A stretch of 27,354 bases of DNA from a virus, in the IMG/VR virus record IMGVR_UViG_3300013131_000206, positions 1 through 27,354 of that record. One strand, given 5' to 3'. A program made the translations under genes and the position numbers. This document shows, in pieces, positions 10,155 through 21,053 of this stretch (its first letter is position 1; each line of letters starts with the position of its first letter). The notes beneath the pieces are model-generated. The model made no database searches. It was not told the origin of the DNA and was given only the letters and a program-made list of their open reading frames with translations.

Positions 10155-10799
10155 TTATTTACTTATTTTTTTACAATTATCAAAATGCCATCTATACATA
10201 TTTGCTGTATTTTTGCTAGATTTTTTACAATGTGGACATATAACATGTTTTTTAAATAGCCAAGCATTTGACATATTTAATTTTTCTAGTTCTGATTTAG
10301 GTCTTTTATTTTTATTTCGTATTTTTTCTATAGATTCTGCAGAATGAGTCCATGTACCTTTTCGATTTCTTAAAACTTCCTTATGTTGTTCAGATATAAT
10401 TTTTCCAGAATGTATAATTTTATTACGTAATGCTACATCTGGTCTAGGCCCTTTTGGTTTTCCTTTTTGCGTTAAACTGCGTTTAATATTAGATTCTATA
10501 GAATTTTTTCCAGATTTAGATTCTGATGTAGTTAATCTACAATTTAATCCATTTGGTCCTAAAACATTATATAAATCTTGATAATATCGTTCTCGATTAT
10601 TTAATTGATTAATATCACATTCTTCTAAAATAATAAATTGATGCTGATCTATACCATATTTATCAATTGATTTTTTTAATCTTGTTTGAAATTTAAAATT
10701 ATTATTTCGTTTATATGAAGTCCATCGTTTTTCAATATTAATTGACTGTCCTATATAAATTTTATTAGATGGCGATATGATTTTATAAATTCCGATCAT
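10155..10799 (-). CDS. GIY-YIG homing endonuclease (SegA/I-TevI type)
   Basis: Mobile site-specific nuclease. The GIY-YIG domain is at the N-terminus: GIY at residues 3-5, YIG at 15-17, catalytic arginine candidate R25 and catalytic glutamate candidate E70 in NNRERYYQDLY. The middle holds NUMOD3-like DNA-binding repeats (GKPKGPRPDVALRNKI, NRKGTWTHSAESIEKIRN). The C-terminus carries a CPHC...H...C zinc-finger-like motif with RWHFDNCKK, often seen at the end of phage homing enzymes. The gene is visibly more AT-rich than the polymerase gene it follows, consistent with separate acquisition. Its ATG overlaps the polymerase stop as ATGA, so it is translated from the polymerase mRNA. All key residues are present, so it is probably active. 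Confidence 0.93.
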   Translation of the reverse strand: MIGIYKIISPSNKIYIGQSINIEKRWTSYKRNNNFKFQTRLKKSIDKYGIDQHQFIILEECDINQLNNRERYYQDLYNVLGPNGLNCRLTTSESKSGKNSIESNIKRSLTQKGKPKGPRPDVALRNKIIHSGKIISEQHKEVLRNRKGTWTHSAESIEKIRNKNKRPKSELEKLNMSNAWLFKKHVICPHCKKSSKNTANMYRWHFDNCKKISK

Positions 10800-12115
10800 T
10801 TTTTTATCTCTTGAATATTATGGTATGTAATACCATATTTCATTTTTATAGGAAATCCACCTTTTTCTAATAAATATTGCAATTTTGGTATAATTTGTAT
10901 TTCTGATAATTCCAAATCTATCAAAATACTGTCATATGTATATAACACTATGCAACTTTCTGTATCTTGTAACAACGCTTGTATTTGTTGCAATTTGCGT
11001 ACGGATACTTCGGTTTCAATGGCCTGTAAATAGTAGTTAAACAATTTAAATGCTGTCATGTTTTGCACTGCATCTTTGCATATACTACGTTTTGTTATGG
11101 GCGTATAAATGCATCCGTTGCGTTTCCATTTATCCCATAATGCATACACAAAATCATTTACTTTGCGAAAAAATGGTATTGATAAAAATTCAGAATCAAT
11201 GCCACCATATAACAAACGAAACGTTATGGCTTTGCTTTCTGCCCGTTGTTCTTCTGTTAATGTATCCGTATCGAAATAAAATCTACCTAAATAATCATGT
11301 ATAGAAGATGCGGGCAATTCATATCCAATAGCCGTTGCAATCAATCTAACATGATATGAATCAAAGTCCATTTCAACCAAAGCACCTCGTTCAAATCGAC
11401 TACAAAATGCTGCTCGAGTACCATCTTCTTTGTTCATTGCAGCAAAATTGAATCCACCAAATGCATTACTAGGTCGACCCGTTACGGTATGATAATTATA
11501 TTGCGAATATACTCGTTGATTGTGAATCAATTCTGGCATACGAAAATCGTCGGTAACTGCTAACCCTGCAGATTCAATACGTGCAAATACTTGCGGATAG
11601 GTTGCGTTAAACTGCAAATATGATTCCGTTAATTCTGCATTAACACACATTGGCCAAGCATAATGACGAATCTTTTGACACATTGCTAAATGTTGCTGCA
11701 ATGGAATGATACTATTAACTGCTGGCAAATTTGTGTGTCGTCGCCAATAAAAACGATGTGCTGCCGTTGGATAATGCGATTCATCGTATGCTTCTGAATA
11801 TGTATACCACCACAATGTCTTAACATCCCATACAGACCCATTTCCTCCCGTTTGTAACCATTGCTTCTTGTCATGAACAAAGATATTCTCTAATGCCAAA
11901 AACTCCGGGACAAGTTCGTTAAAGCCCCTTAGTTGTTCGGAATGACGTAATGGAATTATTCGTTCTATGTCATCTTCAGTATAAACATATACAGCACATA
12001 ATGCGTTTACTGCAACATGTTTTGTGGGACTACAAAATACAGGAACTAGCAAAGTTTTGCGACCTTGAACGAACTTCAATGCGGCGCGTGCATCTTCTAT
12101 AGTATCCACAATCAT
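10796..12115 (-). CDS. polA: Short DNA polymerase, family A, with degraded proofreading domain
   Basis: Template-directed DNA synthesis. The palm and fingers motifs of family A are clear: TVTGRPSN at residues 210-217, motif A with D250 (EMDFDSYHVR), motif B R291-x3-K295-x3-F299-x3-Y303 (matching E. coli R754/K758/F762/Y766), and motif C with D395 (LYTYDSILID). Two usual residues differ: the motif A glutamate (E. coli E710) is H255, and the motif C glutamate after the catalytic Asp is Ser. The first 180 residues resemble a shrunken 3'-5' exonuclease fold but lack a DxE metal site. At 439 residues it is shorter than a Klenow fragment. T4 itself uses a family B enzyme; Rhodothermus phage RM378 is a known relative of T4 with a family A enzyme. 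No Shine-Dalgarno sequence is seen. Confidence 0.9.
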   Translation of the reverse strand: MIVDTIEDARAALKFVQGRKTLLVPVFCSPTKHVAVNALCAVYVYTEDDIERIIPLRHSEQLRGFNELVPEFLALENIFVHDKKQWLQTGGNGSVWDVKTLWWYTYSEAYDESHYPTAAHRFYWRRHTNLPAVNSIIPLQQHLAMCQKIRHYAWPMCVNAELTESYLQFNATYPQVFARIESAGLAVTDDFRMPELIHNQRVYSQYNYHTVTGRPSNAFGGFNFAAMNKEDGTRAAFCSRFERGALVEMDFDSYHVRLIATAIGYELPASSIHDYLGRFYFDTDTLTEEQRAESKAITFRLLYGGIDSEFLSIPFFRKVNDFVYALWDKWKRNGCIYTPITKRSICKDAVQNMTAFKLFNYYLQAIETEVSVRKLQQIQALLQDTESCIVLYTYDSILIDLELSEIQIIPKLQYLLEKGGFPIKMKYGITYHNIQEIKK

Positions 12116-15496: not shown

Positions 15497-17647
15497 TTAT
15501 TCTCCAATTGGGGGGTCTGAATCTACATTTTGAGGCGAATATCCGCCAGGTGTATTTGGATCTCCGCCGATTGCAATTTTTTCTACTTCTGGAACATTTC
15601 CTTTAAAGTCACTTAACCAATTATTATTTCCTTGTTGAGGACGAGCTTGTTTATCAAATTCTTTAGCTAATGTGAAGAATCTTCCATTTTGTTCAGGTAA
15701 ATAATCCATTACTAGATTAAATTGACAAGTAACTCCAATTTTTAAAGGAACTTGCATCATGTGCGGATCATCTTCTATGTTAATTTCCCATGGAGCATCT
15801 ACTGCATATGTATATCCCAATGATGTTAATACTGCAGGTTGTTGTACAAATAAATCTCCAACCGTTAATCGCATCCATGGTGCTATCATTATATATGAAC
15901 TAGCATCATATGTTGGAGCGGTATATCCGGCCAATGCATTTAGTTTTCTGTATATAGGTTTAACTTCATCTCGATCTGTTGCATATACATCAAAACTTAT
16001 ACTTAAATCTCGACTATATCCGGTATAATGATAATTAGGATCGGCTCGTCCAATCATATTAATTGGAGTCCAATTGGCTGAAAATGAATCGTCTAGATTT
16101 GTAATTGCTGCGCGAAATACAATTATATTATCTTTATCGGTTTTTGAATCAGGGTTTCCGTTAAATAACGAAGGACCAGTAAAATAAAATTTTATAAAAT
16201 CTTGTGTAACTCCTAATTTATTTAATTGTTGCGTAAGCCACGAATCATCTTTAAAAAATTTTGGTTTCCAATCGTATGCAAAACGAAGAGGGCTTGATTT
16301 AAAATCTACAACATTAACTTTATCACCACGAAATGGAGTTGCTAATGATAAAGGATTTCTAGTTGCTAAAAACTCTTTATCTGTTGAACTCCATTTTGTT
16401 GCAACATGACTTGTTTGCGTAAAATCTGCTCGATATGCATATGGATTATCATGATCTCCCCAACCATATCCGGTAAGTCCCATTCCATCTAAATTAAATA
16501 CGCTATATGCACCCGCAGGACTTATTGATGCTGCAAGATAGGCACCCGCTTTCCATGAACCATGTGTTAATGCACTAGTACCATCTAAACGACGTTTTGT
16601 TAAATAGGCTACTGTTTGATTTGGTGTATTAAAATAATTTTCTGTTTGTCCTAAGTCATCAGCAGCTTGTTTATTTGCATCATCCGCTGATTTTTGTTGA
16701 CTAAAATTATTTCCTGGAAATGAAAATCTACTACGAAAGTCTGCTGCTTTTACTCCAGGAAATCTTTTTAATCGATTGAAAGGTAATGTAACATATGCTG
16801 CCGGCTTTACTCCGTCAGCTTGATCTAAAAATGAATTTCCAATTTGGGCTATTTGAGGTACTCCGGTAAACGATGCACCTATACTAATTCCAGTTCCGAT
16901 TGCTTGATTAGTAGCAGTATTAGGTGTTATATTTGTATTGTTATTTAATCCAATTAACAATTTTGCATTTTGTATTAATTTAGTTTCAGTTGCTGATCCT
17001 GTTATATCAAATGTAGCTGATTTATTGATTAAACTTTTACCAGTTGAATCTTGTGTTGGATTAAATGCTGGATTATTAGTTATTTTTGATTCTTGCGTAG
17101 TTGCAATATCAAATGGCTGTGTTGTATTAAGTTGGTTTACTGTAGGATTTAATATTGTATTTTCTTGCGTAGTTGCAATATCGAATGGCTGATTTGGATT
17201 GATTTGCCCTAATGTTGGATTTGGATTTGGTGTATCTGTTTCTAATTCAAACGGAAAAAGTGATAGCGGCAAACTTGGTGTTGGTATTTGACCTATCGTA
17301 GGATTAGTAATTACAGTTTCAGTTTCAGTTAAAATATCAAATGGGGTAACAAATTGACCTAGTGCATAATCCGTAGGATTTTGAAATCCTAGTAATTGAA
17401 TTGCTATTTTAAATTCTTGGTTTGTAGCAATATCAAATGGCTGATTTGAATTGACTTGTCCTAATGTTGGGTTAGTAATTACAGTTTCAGTTTCAGTTAA
17501 AATATTAAATGGTTGATTTGGATTGATTTGCCCTAATGTTGGGTTGTAAATTACAGTTTCAGTTTCAGTTAAAATATTATATGGTGTAACAAACTGCGAT
17601 AATGCTGCTACGGTAGGATTGGTTAATATTATGTTGTTATTTGGCAT
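15497..17647 (-). CDS. Baseplate/tail-tube junction protein with N-terminal repeats
   Basis: 716 residues. The C-terminal third (WTPINMIGRADPNYHYTGYS, then YATDRDEVKPIYRKLNALAG) resembles the tube-cap/tube-initiator class (T4 gp48 and gp54), in which a similar segment leads into tube-like beta structure. The first 210 residues are instead an array of about seven to eight imperfect 24-31 residue repeats with consensus NPTLGQINPNQPFDIATTQE. Between them is a linker with little predicted structure. It is nearly twice as long as T4 gp48 (364) or gp54 (320). It lies directly after the tape measure and before the gp53-like gene. Shine-Dalgarno AAGGA overlaps the tape-measure stop. The gp48/54 link is by motif and position only. 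Confidence 0.65.
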   Translation of the reverse strand: MPNNNIILTNPTVAALSQFVTPYNILTETETVIYNPTLGQINPNQPFNILTETETVITNPTLGQVNSNQPFDIATNQEFKIAIQLLGFQNPTDYALGQFVTPFDILTETETVITNPTIGQIPTPSLPLSLFPFELETDTPNPNPTLGQINPNQPFDIATTQENTILNPTVNQLNTTQPFDIATTQESKITNNPAFNPTQDSTGKSLINKSATFDITGSATETKLIQNAKLLIGLNNNTNITPNTATNQAIGTGISIGASFTGVPQIAQIGNSFLDQADGVKPAAYVTLPFNRLKRFPGVKAADFRSRFSFPGNNFSQQKSADDANKQAADDLGQTENYFNTPNQTVAYLTKRRLDGTSALTHGSWKAGAYLAASISPAGAYSVFNLDGMGLTGYGWGDHDNPYAYRADFTQTSHVATKWSSTDKEFLATRNPLSLATPFRGDKVNVVDFKSSPLRFAYDWKPKFFKDDSWLTQQLNKLGVTQDFIKFYFTGPSLFNGNPDSKTDKDNIIVFRAAITNLDDSFSANWTPINMIGRADPNYHYTGYSRDLSISFDVYATDRDEVKPIYRKLNALAGYTAPTYDASSYIMIAPWMRLTVGDLFVQQPAVLTSLGYTYAVDAPWEINIEDDPHMMQVPLKIGVTCQFNLVMDYLPEQNGRFFTLAKEFDKQARPQQGNNNWLSDFKGNVPEVEKIAIGGDPNTPGGYSPQNVDSDPPIGE
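17017..17640 (-). repeat. Coding tandem repeat array, about 72-93 bp units
   Basis: Seven to eight imperfect in-frame units in the 5' part of the tail-junction gene. Two classes alternate: PTLGQINPNQPFDIATTQE and PTLGQ...ILTETETVITN. DNA copies such as ACTGAAACTGAAACTGTAAT recur nearly unchanged, so some units are recent duplications. Confidence 0.8.
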
Positions 17648-17649
17648 CG

Positions 17650-19461
17650 TTATCCTTCATAATATGGACCATTTAATGTTGTTGCACCAAATACTGCTGA
17701 TGTATTGTTGTTTATATTAGTTACGGTAGTTCCGGAGCCTTTACTGTTGATTGCTGCAACAATCATGCGTCCTACTTGCATCATTACTGCAGATAAATTG
17801 TCTCCGTTTGCTGTATTGTTGTTTGTATCATTTACGGTAGTTGGATTTTGTAATGATGGATCAGTACCAGCTAATATTGTATCCTGTGGATCTAAAACGA
17901 ATGTTCCTGCTGGAGCTGAAATAATTGGAGCCGAACTGCCGGGTGGTATCATAACGTCCTGCTTTATTTCGGCATCAATAGCCTTCATATCATCAGATGT
18001 TGCAAGACTTGTGCTATCTAAACTTAAAGTTTCTGCTCCTTTCTTCCCCGTAGCGACTACTTCTGCAACTGCACCTCGTCCGACAAATGCAGGAGCTGCA
18101 GCTTCCAATGAAGCAAAATCAATTAATGCAGCTTGAAACTTTTCCATATTTTTATCATCTAATATGGCTTGTTTGTTTGCTTCAACTAATGCAGCTTGTT
18201 CTGTTGTTAACATAGCTTTCATTACAGCAGTTTGCTCAAATTGTAATACCAATTGTTGTTTTAAAATATCTTCTGTTCCGCGAGTATCAGTTGATTTTTT
18301 TAATTGTTTATATTGTTCATCTGATATTTCTCCTTGTTTTTTCATGTTTTCGACTGCATCTGAAAAGGCCGTGCCATCTAAATTCATTAAAACTTTGAGA
18401 TTTGAATCAGATTCTAATAATTTTTTCTTTTGAAGAGCTTTACTTAATTGTGCTTCGTCGATTCCTAATAATTTGGACATTTGTTGACGAGCAAACAAAT
18501 TGTTTTCTAAAGTATCGCCTTCTTGTTCTAAAATGGTGTTTAATGTATCAGCTTGTTTAGACATATCGCCCATCAATGTTGCTTGACGATACATGTTAGT
18601 CAAACTTTCGCCTGATTGTTGATCTACCAATCTGCGTCCAGATAATAATTGATATTCTAATTCATCGCCTATACTAGATTCAATGTTTAAAAGTTGTTCT
18701 CCAGCTCCAGCTAAATCATCTAAACTAAATCCTAATGCAGTTGCTTTTAATGTAGCAAGTTCTAAATTGCCTGGTAATTTTCCATATTGTAATTGAACTT
18801 CCGATCCTGCACTTGCAATACCTTCGATAACTTGTTGCATATAATCTACAGTATCAAATGCATCTTTATTTGCGCCAGCTACTGCATCGGCATTAGCTTT
18901 AAGTACGTTTTGAATTTCCTCTCCTAAATAAAGATATTTATCTGCATTTTCTCCCATTTTGGATGTATATAATGTAAATGCTTCAGCGGACTGTGCAGTT
19001 AATCCCATGTTTGTAGTTAGCATATCTTGAATACGTAACATTCCTTTATATTGACGATCATTTTCTTTACCATATTGCGTATACAATGGAAGCATCTTTT
19101 TAATATTAACTGCATACGTAGCCATTTGTTTGCTAGTTGCACCTAGGCCGTCTTGAAAACTAAGAATTGACTGTGCTAATTTAGCAGTTTGAGTACTCGT
19201 TAATCTAAACCCTTCTTGTAGATCTTTATTTCGCTTTTCTAATACTAATGTTGAATTATTTAATTTAGCGTATGCGCCAATCAAAGCTTCCTGTTTGCCA
19301 ATATAATCATCAAATCCGCGATTTAACTGATTTACTTGTACAAATGCATCGGCCATTTGAGCGGCCATTTTGGCGTTTGCTGCTGAATATTTCCCGGTTG
19401 CTATTGCAGCATGTGCAGCGGTACCTAACATGTTACTTAAACTATCAATGAATCCGGGCAT
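17650..19461 (-). CDS. Tail tape measure protein
   Basis: 603 residues, almost wholly alpha-helical and Ala/Gln/Leu-rich, with long stretches of predicted coil (residues about 10-120 and 330-420) and a Pro/Gly/Asn-rich C-terminus (VTNINNNTSAVFG). It lies between the chaperone locus and the baseplate cap gene, the fixed place of tape measures in tailed phages. T4 gp29 has 590 residues for a tail of about 98 nm, so a tail of similar length is expected. The N-terminus MPGFIDSLSNMLGTAAHAA may be amphipathic. A copy of the late promoter-like element lies 15 nt upstream of the ATG; the Shine-Dalgarno is weak (AAAAGA). Confidence 0.8.
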   Translation of the reverse strand: MPGFIDSLSNMLGTAAHAAIATGKYSAANAKMAAQMADAFVQVNQLNRGFDDYIGKQEALIGAYAKLNNSTLVLEKRNKDLQEGFRLTSTQTAKLAQSILSFQDGLGATSKQMATYAVNIKKMLPLYTQYGKENDRQYKGMLRIQDMLTTNMGLTAQSAEAFTLYTSKMGENADKYLYLGEEIQNVLKANADAVAGANKDAFDTVDYMQQVIEGIASAGSEVQLQYGKLPGNLELATLKATALGFSLDDLAGAGEQLLNIESSIGDELEYQLLSGRRLVDQQSGESLTNMYRQATLMGDMSKQADTLNTILEQEGDTLENNLFARQQMSKLLGIDEAQLSKALQKKKLLESDSNLKVLMNLDGTAFSDAVENMKKQGEISDEQYKQLKKSTDTRGTEDILKQQLVLQFEQTAVMKAMLTTEQAALVEANKQAILDDKNMEKFQAALIDFASLEAAAPAFVGRGAVAEVVATGKKGAETLSLDSTSLATSDDMKAIDAEIKQDVMIPPGSSAPIISAPAGTFVLDPQDTILAGTDPSLQNPTTVNDTNNNTANGDNLSAVMMQVGRMIVAAINSKGSGTTVTNINNNTSAVFGATTLNGPYYEG

Positions 19462-19492: not shown

Positions 19493-19795
19493 TTAGGTTT
19501 TGGAAGATGTCGGAACTTTGCTAGTTTTTGTGCGCATTTTTCTTTTTTGTTCTTCGATAGCTTTAGTTTGATCTTCAATAATCTTGTTGACTTTGCTTAT
19601 ATAAAATCTTCGAAGAAATATTGGCATATTGTATACAGTATCCCAATCCCATCGCCCAGCACCGTGCCAAATTAAATTGAATAGATTTTCATGAAGTTTT
19701 ATTCGATCAACTGGTTTAAAACCAAAAAAAGTCTGGTCCAACTTGAAATCGCGCAGTGAAGGTGCTCCCATCTTCACCTTCAAATTCATAATCAT
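19493..19795 (-). CDS. Second frame of the tail assembly chaperone locus (probable frameshift extension)
   Basis: The open frame overlaps the 3' end of the 253-residue gene by 80 nt. The conserved-looking part starts at the overlap's end: FGFKPVDRIKLHENLFNLI, then NMPIFLRRFYISKV and a charged helix, a pattern seen in short chaperone-type proteins next to the tape measure. The ATG at 19795 has no Shine-Dalgarno; an ATG at 19771 has a weak one (AAGGTG). The two frames share a T7 run at 19724-19730, where a +1 (or -2) slip on UUU before UGG would yield a fusion of about 327 residues. The position between tube and tape measure is that of the lambda G/GT and similar frameshifted chaperones. Independent initiation is the alternative. 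Confidence 0.72.
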   Translation of the reverse strand: MIMNLKVKMGAPSLRDFKLDQTFFGFKPVDRIKLHENLFNLIWHGAGRWDWDTVYNMPIFLRRFYISKVNKIIEDQTKAIEEQKRKMRTKTSKVPTSSKT

Positions 19796-20477
19796 AATTT
19801 AAACCAGGTGCATTATCTGCATAAAATAAACGAAATTCTTTAGCATCTCGAGCAAGGAATTCGTATCGCAAAAAGTTTTCAATATCAGTTTCTTTGCGAG
19901 AACCATTTACTTCACATATCATGTTTTTCATTAAACCCGATACTGTAAATTCTTCGTCTTTAAATGTTGTTGTATATCTAAATTTTATGCTAGTAGTATC
20001 ATTTACTTGGTATGTAAATTCTCCGGCATCATCAGATTCTAACGTAAATGGTTTATGACCAATTTTATTTAAATCAACAATGCGACTTAAATCTTTTTTA
20101 GATTCTGGATCTTGTACTGTTACGGGATATTCTGATCCGTATGATGCAATTCTAGAATAAACAATCAATGCATCTCGATCTTGCGGTGATAAATCTTTTG
20201 ATTTGATAGGCGTTAATAAGATTGCATCAATAAGTTTATCAAACAAGATTCCAGATTGCAAATAACTCGAATTGGTTAAAATATCCTCATCATATGCAGT
20301 CATATAACGTATTTCTACTTTGCCTTCTCGCAACAAACTAGATTTAGGATAAATCAATCCTTTACTTGGTAGATTGATTACGATGCTAGGTAATTTGCTT
20401 TTTTGTTGATTTTCATATTGCTGACGAGCAATATTTACGATGTCTTGATTTGCTAAACGTGTTGTCACTTTACTCAT
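19716..20477 (-). CDS. Tail assembly chaperone / T4 gp26-like baseplate protein
   Basis: 253 residues. An N-terminal helix leads to the signature LPSKGLIYP, then a beta strand with VEIRYMTAYDEDILTN, a pattern of the family that holds T4 gp26 (T4 baseplate protein). A helical segment follows (FDKLIDAILLTPIKSKDLSP, then DRDALIVYSRIASYGSEYPV) and then a beta domain. The end GPDFFWF lies over a T7 run shared with the next frame. By position, between tube and tape measure, it matches the chaperone that coats the tape measure before tube polymerisation. I name both roles because I cannot separate the gp26 family from chaperones by sight. The Shine-Dalgarno AAAGGAA is clear; a GC-rich hairpin sits upstream. 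Confidence 0.75.
   Translation of the reverse strand: MSKVTTRLANQDIVNIARQQYENQQKSKLPSIVINLPSKGLIYPKSSLLREGKVEIRYMTAYDEDILTNSSYLQSGILFDKLIDAILLTPIKSKDLSPQDRDALIVYSRIASYGSEYPVTVQDPESKKDLSRIVDLNKIGHKPFTLESDDAGEFTYQVNDTTSIKFRYTTTFKDEEFTVSGLMKNMICEVNGSRKETDIENFLRYEFLARDAKEFRLFYADNAPGLNYDYEFEGEDGSTFTARFQVGPDFFWF
19724..19730 (-). promoter_or_regulatory. Candidate programmed frameshift site
   Basis: The coding strand reads GAC TTT TTT TGG TTT TAA in the upstream frame. A +1 slip of the UUU-decoding tRNA in the T7 run enters the downstream frame at GGT TTT AAA. The upstream stop is three codons further. Confidence 0.45.
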
Positions 20478-20498: not shown

Positions 20499-20517
20499 AA
20501 AGGGGGCTTTCGCCCCC
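20499..20517 (-). terminator. GC-rich hairpin after the tube gene, likely partial terminator
   Basis: 6-bp GC stem GGGGGC/GCCCCC (arms 20502-20507 and 20512-20517) with a GAAA tetraloop on the minus strand, followed by only TTT. On the plus strand the same hairpin is followed by a longer T-rich stretch. It lies between tube and chaperone genes and could lower expression downstream of the abundant tube protein. Confidence 0.65.
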
Positions 20518-20531
20518 GTGTTGTTTTTTTA

Positions 20532-21053
20532 TTAGAAGTTCAAGAACGCATAATCATATCGGATAGTCAATTCAATTTCTTGAACTGCATCTGATGTCCA
20601 ATCAAATGTTCCAAACGCTGCATCCGTGATGAATGCTCCACTTAATACCCATTCTTCAATAATCTCACCTAATGGTGAAAGTTGATGAAGTTTAATTTCT
20701 TTTTTATAAAATGTAGAATAACCATTACGTCCCGTTTTAGATTCATGATGCAAACGAACCCATTCCATTACTGATTGTGCTGCAGATGGAACAATTGCAT
20801 CATACAATGTCATTGTAATGGTACTCCATTCTGATTTGCCTTTTACGTAACGTTTAACGTTAATCATGTCCAATGCAACTTCGCCGTTTGTAATAGTCGG
20901 TTTTCCAGATGCTTTAACTAGGTGCGATGGAATATCATCAACTACCAATATAAATTGATGTTGCCGTTTTGGTTCCCAATTATATGCCAAGTTAAATAAA
21001 TCAGCACCTTCGTAATTGTCTAATTGTCCGTTTAAATAATCTCCTAATGCCAT
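20532..21053 (-). CDS. gp19: Tail tube protein, T4 gp19 type
   Basis: 173 residues, close to T4 gp19 (163). Sequence blocks fit the family: FNLAYNWEPKRQHQFILVVD near the N-terminus, then beta strands (VALDMINVKRYVKGKSEWS, ITMTLYDAIVPSAAQSVMEWV) and the closing strand IELTIRYDYAFLNF. It forms the stacked hexameric inner tube that the sheath contracts around. It follows the sheath gene but is separated from it by a strong terminator and a promoter-like element, so it is probably transcribed on its own as well. Shine-Dalgarno AAGGACC is present. Confidence 0.9.
   Translation of the reverse strand: MALGDYLNGQLDNYEGADLFNLAYNWEPKRQHQFILVVDDIPSHLVKASGKPTITNGEVALDMINVKRYVKGKSEWSTITMTLYDAIVPSAAQSVMEWVRLHHESKTGRNGYSTFYKKEIKLHQLSPLGEIIEEWVLSGAFITDAAFGTFDWTSDAVQEIELTIRYDYAFLNF

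Follow-up and report, generated by a model that had tools for sequence, protein, structure and literature searches.

Introduction

The slips of lambda gpG/gpGT and of the tail assembly chaperones (TACs) treated by Xu, Hendrix & Duda (2004) are mostly −1, and −2 in Mu, according to a later account (PMC5009743). A +1 TAC has been predicted in the haloarchaeal myovirus HSTV-2 (PMC5009743, PMC8211752) and forward sites occur among the TACs of the SEA-PHAGES collection (PMC10885494). Tail chaperone frameshifts are already known, and +1 examples have already been proposed. A first-pass annotation of the DNA studied here had named no described slip in the gp26-like genes of T4 relatives; that statement was checked in part, and to this extent it agrees with the open reviews, which describe the frameshift of tail chaperones as kept throughout the long-tailed phages 'except T4' (PMC5009743).

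Here we analyze a stretch of viral DNA of 27,354 nucleotides (the window) carrying two overlapping open reading frames, ORF1 and ORF2. We consider it highly likely, on comparison of sequences, that this locus and its counterparts in a large clade of relatives use programmed +1 ribosomal frameshifting to produce the long form of a T4-type TAC. Three points appear to be new within the open literature: a +1 shift in genes of the T4 gp26 family, the breadth of its conservation, and the contrast in direction between related groups.

Results

The minus strand of the window encodes, in this order, the tail sheath, the tail tube, ORF1, ORF2 and a putative tape measure gene (Table 1). An HMM search with the gene downstream of ORF2 gave no match of its own; the gene at the same position is annotated as the tape measure in immuto, SP-15 and LIS04. 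SP-15 also carries an annotated terminator at the place matching window positions 20502-20517. Downstream of the putative tape measure gene, a 716-aa protein (15497-17647), whose N-terminal part repeats NPT(L/V)xQ...PF(D/N)I(L/A)T, had no family match, and the C-terminal half of a 439-aa protein (10796-12115) weakly resembles family A DNA polymerase (phrog_17, E=7e-9; Pfam under cut-off).

Table 1. Positions in the window of the frames, candidate signals and neighboring genes of the chaperone locus
Feature	Position	Strand	Remarks
ORF1, gp26-like short tail assembly chaperone (TAC-N)	19716..20477	(-)	253 aa; stop TAA 19718-19716
ORF2, open frame	19795..19493	(-)	100 aa
ORF2 as decoded after the slip, putative C-terminal part of the long form (TAC-NC)	19493..19723	(-)	+1 frame
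Slip site TTT TTT TGG	19722..19730	(-)	(T/C)TT_Y in 117/120 clusters
Possible secondary +1 site TTT_TAA	19716..19721	(-)	stop codon in A-site; not conserved
Upstream hairpin GAAGGTG(10-nt loop)CACCTTC	19758..19781	(-)	RNAalifold consensus and synonymous constraint
Tail tube gene, upstream neighbor of ORF1	20532..21053	(-)	phrog_4542, E=6e-26; PF06841, E=2e-4, under curated cut-off
Tail sheath gene	23614-21140	(-)	
Probable tape measure gene, downstream neighbor	17650..19461	(-)	603 aa; by position alone
Terminator-like hairpin between tube gene and ORF1	20502..20517	(-)	

The two overlapping frames sharing TTT TTT TGG that had been noticed in the first-pass annotation are both present, with the lengths given in Table 1. 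ORF1 ends in GTT GGA CCA GAC TTT TTT TGG TTT TAA; in ORF2 this stretch is read one base further on, as ACT TTT TTT GGT TTT AAA CCA GTT GAT, and the step from ORF1 to ORF2 is therefore +1 (or −2). Read as a +1 site, the junction comprises a first TTT (19730-19728), the P-site TTT (19727-19725), a skipped T (19724) and, in the 0-frame, an A-site TGG (19724-19722); decoding after the slip runs GGT TTT AAA CCA up to the stop at 19495-19493. The fusion translated at +1 has 327 residues, the length expected beforehand, with the junction-spanning peptide ...GPDFFGFKPVDR....

ORF1 is a homolog of T4 gp26: it matches the Pfam family T4_baseplate (PF12322) with E=1.8e-9 (38 bits, cut-off 24.5) and phrog_150 with E=9.4e-13. 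An AlphaFold model of ORF1 (pLDDT 90.4) matches, in BFVD, predicted viral T4-like gp26/gp51 proteins, the 'baseplate hub subunit' of SP-15 being among the best; in the PDB there was neither a sequence match nor a significant fold match to ORF1, and the HK97 TAC (2ob9) appears at E=3.7. ORF2 contains the conserved domain FFGF.P.DR..LH..IF.L.WHG.GRW.WD..YNMP..LR. An iterated HMM seeded from +1 ORF2 sequences finds gp51 of P-SSM2 at 1e-11, 7/56 ORF2 members reach phrog_634 (best E=0.003), and direct hhalign of ORF2 to T4 gp51 gave no alignment.

The coverage of phrog_150 (282 positions) bears on how these proteins relate to T4 gp26 and gp51, known as baseplate hub and hub assembly proteins. T4 gp26 covers positions 14-235 and T4 gp51 positions 13-280, the two align with each other, and they are encoded by separate genes on opposite strands. 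Thus, T4 gp51 looks like gp26 with an extra C-terminal part, and since it spans nearly all of phrog_150 and gp26 only 14-235, T4 would carry the same short/long pair as two genes. In P-SSM2, gp26 covers 5-232 and the 57-aa gp51 covers 239-278; judged by these alignments, the short-form piece and the extra C-terminal piece are placed end to end in cyanophages. By its title, a study by Vladimirov et al. (2022; cited in PMC10885494) concerns the TACs of T4-like phages, and the two-form reading of T4 gp26/gp51 agrees with that title.

A total of 217 usable relatives, forming 133 clusters at 80% identity, were compared at the junction, and an ORF2 HMM, seeded from close relatives only and then iterated, was used to assign the frame. 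Of the 131 clusters assigned in this way, 120 have the ORF2 domain in +1 and 11 have it in −1. Among the 80 IMG/VR relatives closest to the window (identity from 100 down to about 52%), ORF2 lies in +1 in 80/80, with a junction of the form (C/T/A)TT-(T/C)TT-TGG. Isolated members of the +1 clade, given here with their hosts, have the same frame relation at variant sites: Flavobacterium phage immuto, Microcystis phage Mel-JY01, Rhodothermus phage RM378 (in which the HMM found no match and the relation was read by eye), and also Bacillus phage SP-15, Listeria phage LIS04 and Streptococcus phage GXN1. Because it is kept in all 80 nearest relatives and in isolated phages, the arrangement is not due to chance. 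Homopolymer runs are error-prone, and a sequencing or assembly error in a single gene could in principle split it in this manner; however, the same relation recurs in finished genomes of isolated phages as well as in hundreds of metagenomic contigs of different origin, and this conservation refutes an error, whose probability we regard as negligible. In one relative (L144), the ORF2 domain lies in −1 without a start codon or an evident slip site (TTC TTC TGG), an arrangement due either to a sequencing error or to another mechanism.

ORF2 is under purifying selection, as judged from codon comparisons: its median dN/dS is 0.14 (563 pairs), against 1.04 and 1.75 for the same DNA read in the other two frames. 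In the records of isolated phages that were inspected, ORF2 is missing, truncated or labelled as a separate hypothetical gene.

ORF2 might instead be an independent overlapping gene, translated from its own start codon and never fused to ORF1. Many +1 members do carry ATGs in the ORF2 frame upstream of the slip, which counts against frameshifting; the window itself has them (from 19795 on), as do many close relatives, in which one stands at −47 after GGTGAAG. None of the window's ATGs, however, is conserved among relatives: several close ones have ACG, CTG or GCA in place of the −47 ATG, in L063/L068 a stop separates this ATG from the rest of the frame, and it was rejected as an independent start. 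More generally, ATG, GTG and TTG are all absent from the ORF2 frame before the ORF1 stop in 34/120 clusters, and RM378 is one of several relatives in which the frame does not open until 20-26 nt before that stop. The lack of a good start codon, remarked on at the outset for the window, is thus borne out as a conserved feature. Separate starts do exist (L220, L225 and LR756511), but they are placed at or after the ORF1 stop. The ORF2 of L220 and that of L225 lie in −1 and begin with an ATG directly behind the ORF1 stop. The TTT_Y site has been lost in L220 (TTC TTG TAT) and altered in L225 (TTC CTT TGG); these relatives, which by their sequences have apparently switched from a frameshifted to a separate gene, represent a natural control for the slip site. 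An independent ORF2 across the clade seems to us very improbable.

Within the permitted overlap, a (T/C)TT codon followed by T or C is found in 117/120 of the +1 clusters, and each of these 117 has TTT or CTT in the P-site. Where the P-site codon encodes Phe it is TTT in 111/111; in the remainder of these genes, TTT makes up 76.5% of the Phe codons. The nominal P of 1e-13 is inflated, because the 133 clusters share ancestry and it overstates their independence. The most common forms of the site are TTT TTT_TGG (51 clusters), CTT TTT_TGG (26) and TTT TTT_TAC (11), with TTT TTT_CGT (8), TTC TTT_CGT (4) and TTT CTT_TGG (2) being rarer, and UGG occupies the A-site in 84/117. A preference for CGN among A-site Arg codons (15/15 vs 37/166) was dropped as a proof of +1 re-pairing and is not used as evidence, because CGN could also stem from constraint on GTN, the +1 codon that follows. 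In several relatives (L193, L196-L198 and L202) the slip codon is replaced (TTA TTT AAT CCC AGT and similar), CCC_A being the sole +1 candidate that remains in L193 (TTA TTT AAT CCC_AGT); a slip site was looked for in L188 and none was found.

A −2 ribosomal frameshift would reach the same frame with one extra Phe (328 aa). The tail chaperone of Mu is a precedent (PMC5009743), the TTTTTTT run of the window permits this re-pairing, and 106/117 clusters are compatible with it by pairing alone. In the other 11, however, the codon preceding the P-site is TTC, AAC or GAG (TTC TTT_, AAC TTT_ and GAG TTT_) and re-pairing at −2 is impossible, while re-pairing at +1 (UUU to UUU/UUC, CUU to UUU) is feasible in 117/117. 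Moreover, the preceding codon varies freely (TTT, CTT, TTC, ATT, AAC, GAG) while the P-site codon does not. Of the two steps left open by the first-pass annotation, +1 is therefore favored, and −2 we hold to be quite unlikely. A −1 slip at the junction of the window was rejected as well: ORF2 is in +1, and in most close relatives a stop is reached in the −1 frame within 5-50 codons. A second candidate site, TTT_TAA, is present in most window-like sequences, but its TTT is replaced by GTT, ATT or ACT in several close relatives, and more distant ones lack the site.

The T run itself comprises 6-8 T in 103/117 clusters, and slippage of the polymerase on such a run could yield mixed mRNAs, some of which join the two frames. 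Yet the 14 clusters with a run of 3-4 T, too short for the polymerase slippage usually described, keep the frame relation, and transcriptional slippage is, in our view, more improbable than either a −2 shift or an independent ORF2. Comparison with homologs, both for the T run and for the frame arrangement, was the check suggested in the first-pass annotation; with a +1 ORF2 in 120/131 clusters and the site in 117/120 of them, and with all the other comparative tests that we ran, it upholds a gp26-like tail chaperone locus with a slip, lying between tube and tape measure.

No strong stimulator conserved over the whole clade was found. In the window's group, synonymous differences fall in the last 20 codons before the slip (about 0.24 vs 0.40), and this segment contains a hairpin that had not been seen in the first-pass annotation, GAAGGTG-10 nt-CACCTTC, with arms at 19781-19775 and 19764-19758, 30 nt 5′ of the P-site codon. 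Its codons are biased, Thr being ACC in 51/54 (background 7%) and Phe TTC in 47/58 (background 17%). RNAalifold, run on 58 sequences of the group, returns precisely this 7-bp hairpin, with 98.5% of the cells of the alignment paired and compensatory changes in two pairs, a thin covariation (3 cells). A common hairpin at the same position was sought in the other +1 groups and not found, and a role of the hairpin in frameshifting is a guess. Shine-Dalgarno (SD)-like pairing 4-8 nt upstream is weakly enriched (about 20% vs 4%), too weakly for a prfB-like stimulator to be retained, and structure downstream of the site, slightly better than in shuffled sequences (mean z about −0.6) but with no shared element, was likewise set aside.

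A −1 version of the same junction, also absent from the first-pass annotation, occurs in cyanophage and jumbo relatives. Scans with gp26 of P-SSM2 and with Atu_ph07/PA5oct place ORF2 in −1 in 89/91 loci with an HMM match, nearly all of them with T_TTT_TTC just before the stop. The gp26 genes of cyanophage and jumbo T4-like sequences (L093, L231-L324) end in T_TTT_TTC, and their gp51-like ORF is read in −1. In many cyanophages, an ATG is also found 5 nt downstream of the first base of the gp26 stop codon. In a midpoint-rooted tree of 57 representatives, one side holds the main −1 groups; the other comprises the +1 representatives and four rows labelled −1 (the supports of the two sides are 89). 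Among these rows, L085 has a separate ATG, L239 has its match farther downstream, and L144 is found there as well; L187 has a weak HMM match and its real overlap appears to be +1.

Discussion

The long form would arise as follows. We infer that shifting takes place in cells, at an efficiency that would leave most ribosomes to read ORF1 to its stop and release the 253-aa short form (TAC-N, gp26-like). In a fraction of ribosomes, the tRNA-Phe in the P-site would leave its UUU and, with UGG waiting in the A-site, re-pair one base forward on UUU, or on UUC in those relatives in which the next base is C. The shifted ribosomes would then read on through GGU UUU AAA, and their product would be the long form (TAC-NC) of 327 aa. 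If lambda gpG/gpGT is a guide, both forms may act as chaperones, coating the tape measure protein and recruiting tube subunits of the tail.

Possibly, and we offer this as a tentative proposal that is somewhat less probable than its converse, the frameshift of T4-type chaperones changed direction at one homologous pair of Phe codons, being −1 (T_TTT_TTC) in cyanophages and some jumbo phages and +1 (TTT_Y) in a large clade, with none in T4, where the genes are separate; in the window's group, the hairpin could aid the forward shift by refolding behind the ribosome. Despite the 'except T4' statement, frameshifting appears to occur in a very large group of T4 relatives, and to go forward rather than backward. 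Two related clades with opposite directions at matching codons would offer a clean natural experiment on the determinants of frameshift direction, and the annotation of ORF2 in the records of isolated phages would be corrected.

The locus shares with lambda gpG/gpGT a short and a long form, overlapping ORFs, a slip near the end of ORF1 and a position between tail tube and tape measure; unlike the lambda-type TACs, its putative shift is +1, at UUU_Y/CUU_U, and ORF1 belongs to the T4 gp26 family. With HSTV-2 and the SEA-PHAGES cases it has in common a proposed +1 shift in a tail chaperone, but those concern, as far as they have been described, other hosts and chaperone families. P-SSM2, Atu_ph07 and PA5oct have a homologous ORF1, and their ORF2 overlaps it at the matching FF near the end of gp26; their ORF2, however, is in the −1 frame at T_TTT_TTC. 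T4 gp26/gp51 and ORF1 are of the same family (PF12322, phrog_150), but the two forms of T4 come from separate genes on opposite strands, whereas here a single locus with a putative frameshift would supply both.

Forward re-pairing in the P-site of the kind proposed here is established for bacterial prfB (RF2). In prfB, as at this junction, a P-site CUU or UUU re-pairs onto UUU when the next base is U. The A-site here holds UGG, UAC, CGN and other codons in place of a stop, a clear SD is missing 3 nt upstream, and the shift would serve to set a ratio of products, whereas that of prfB serves autoregulation.
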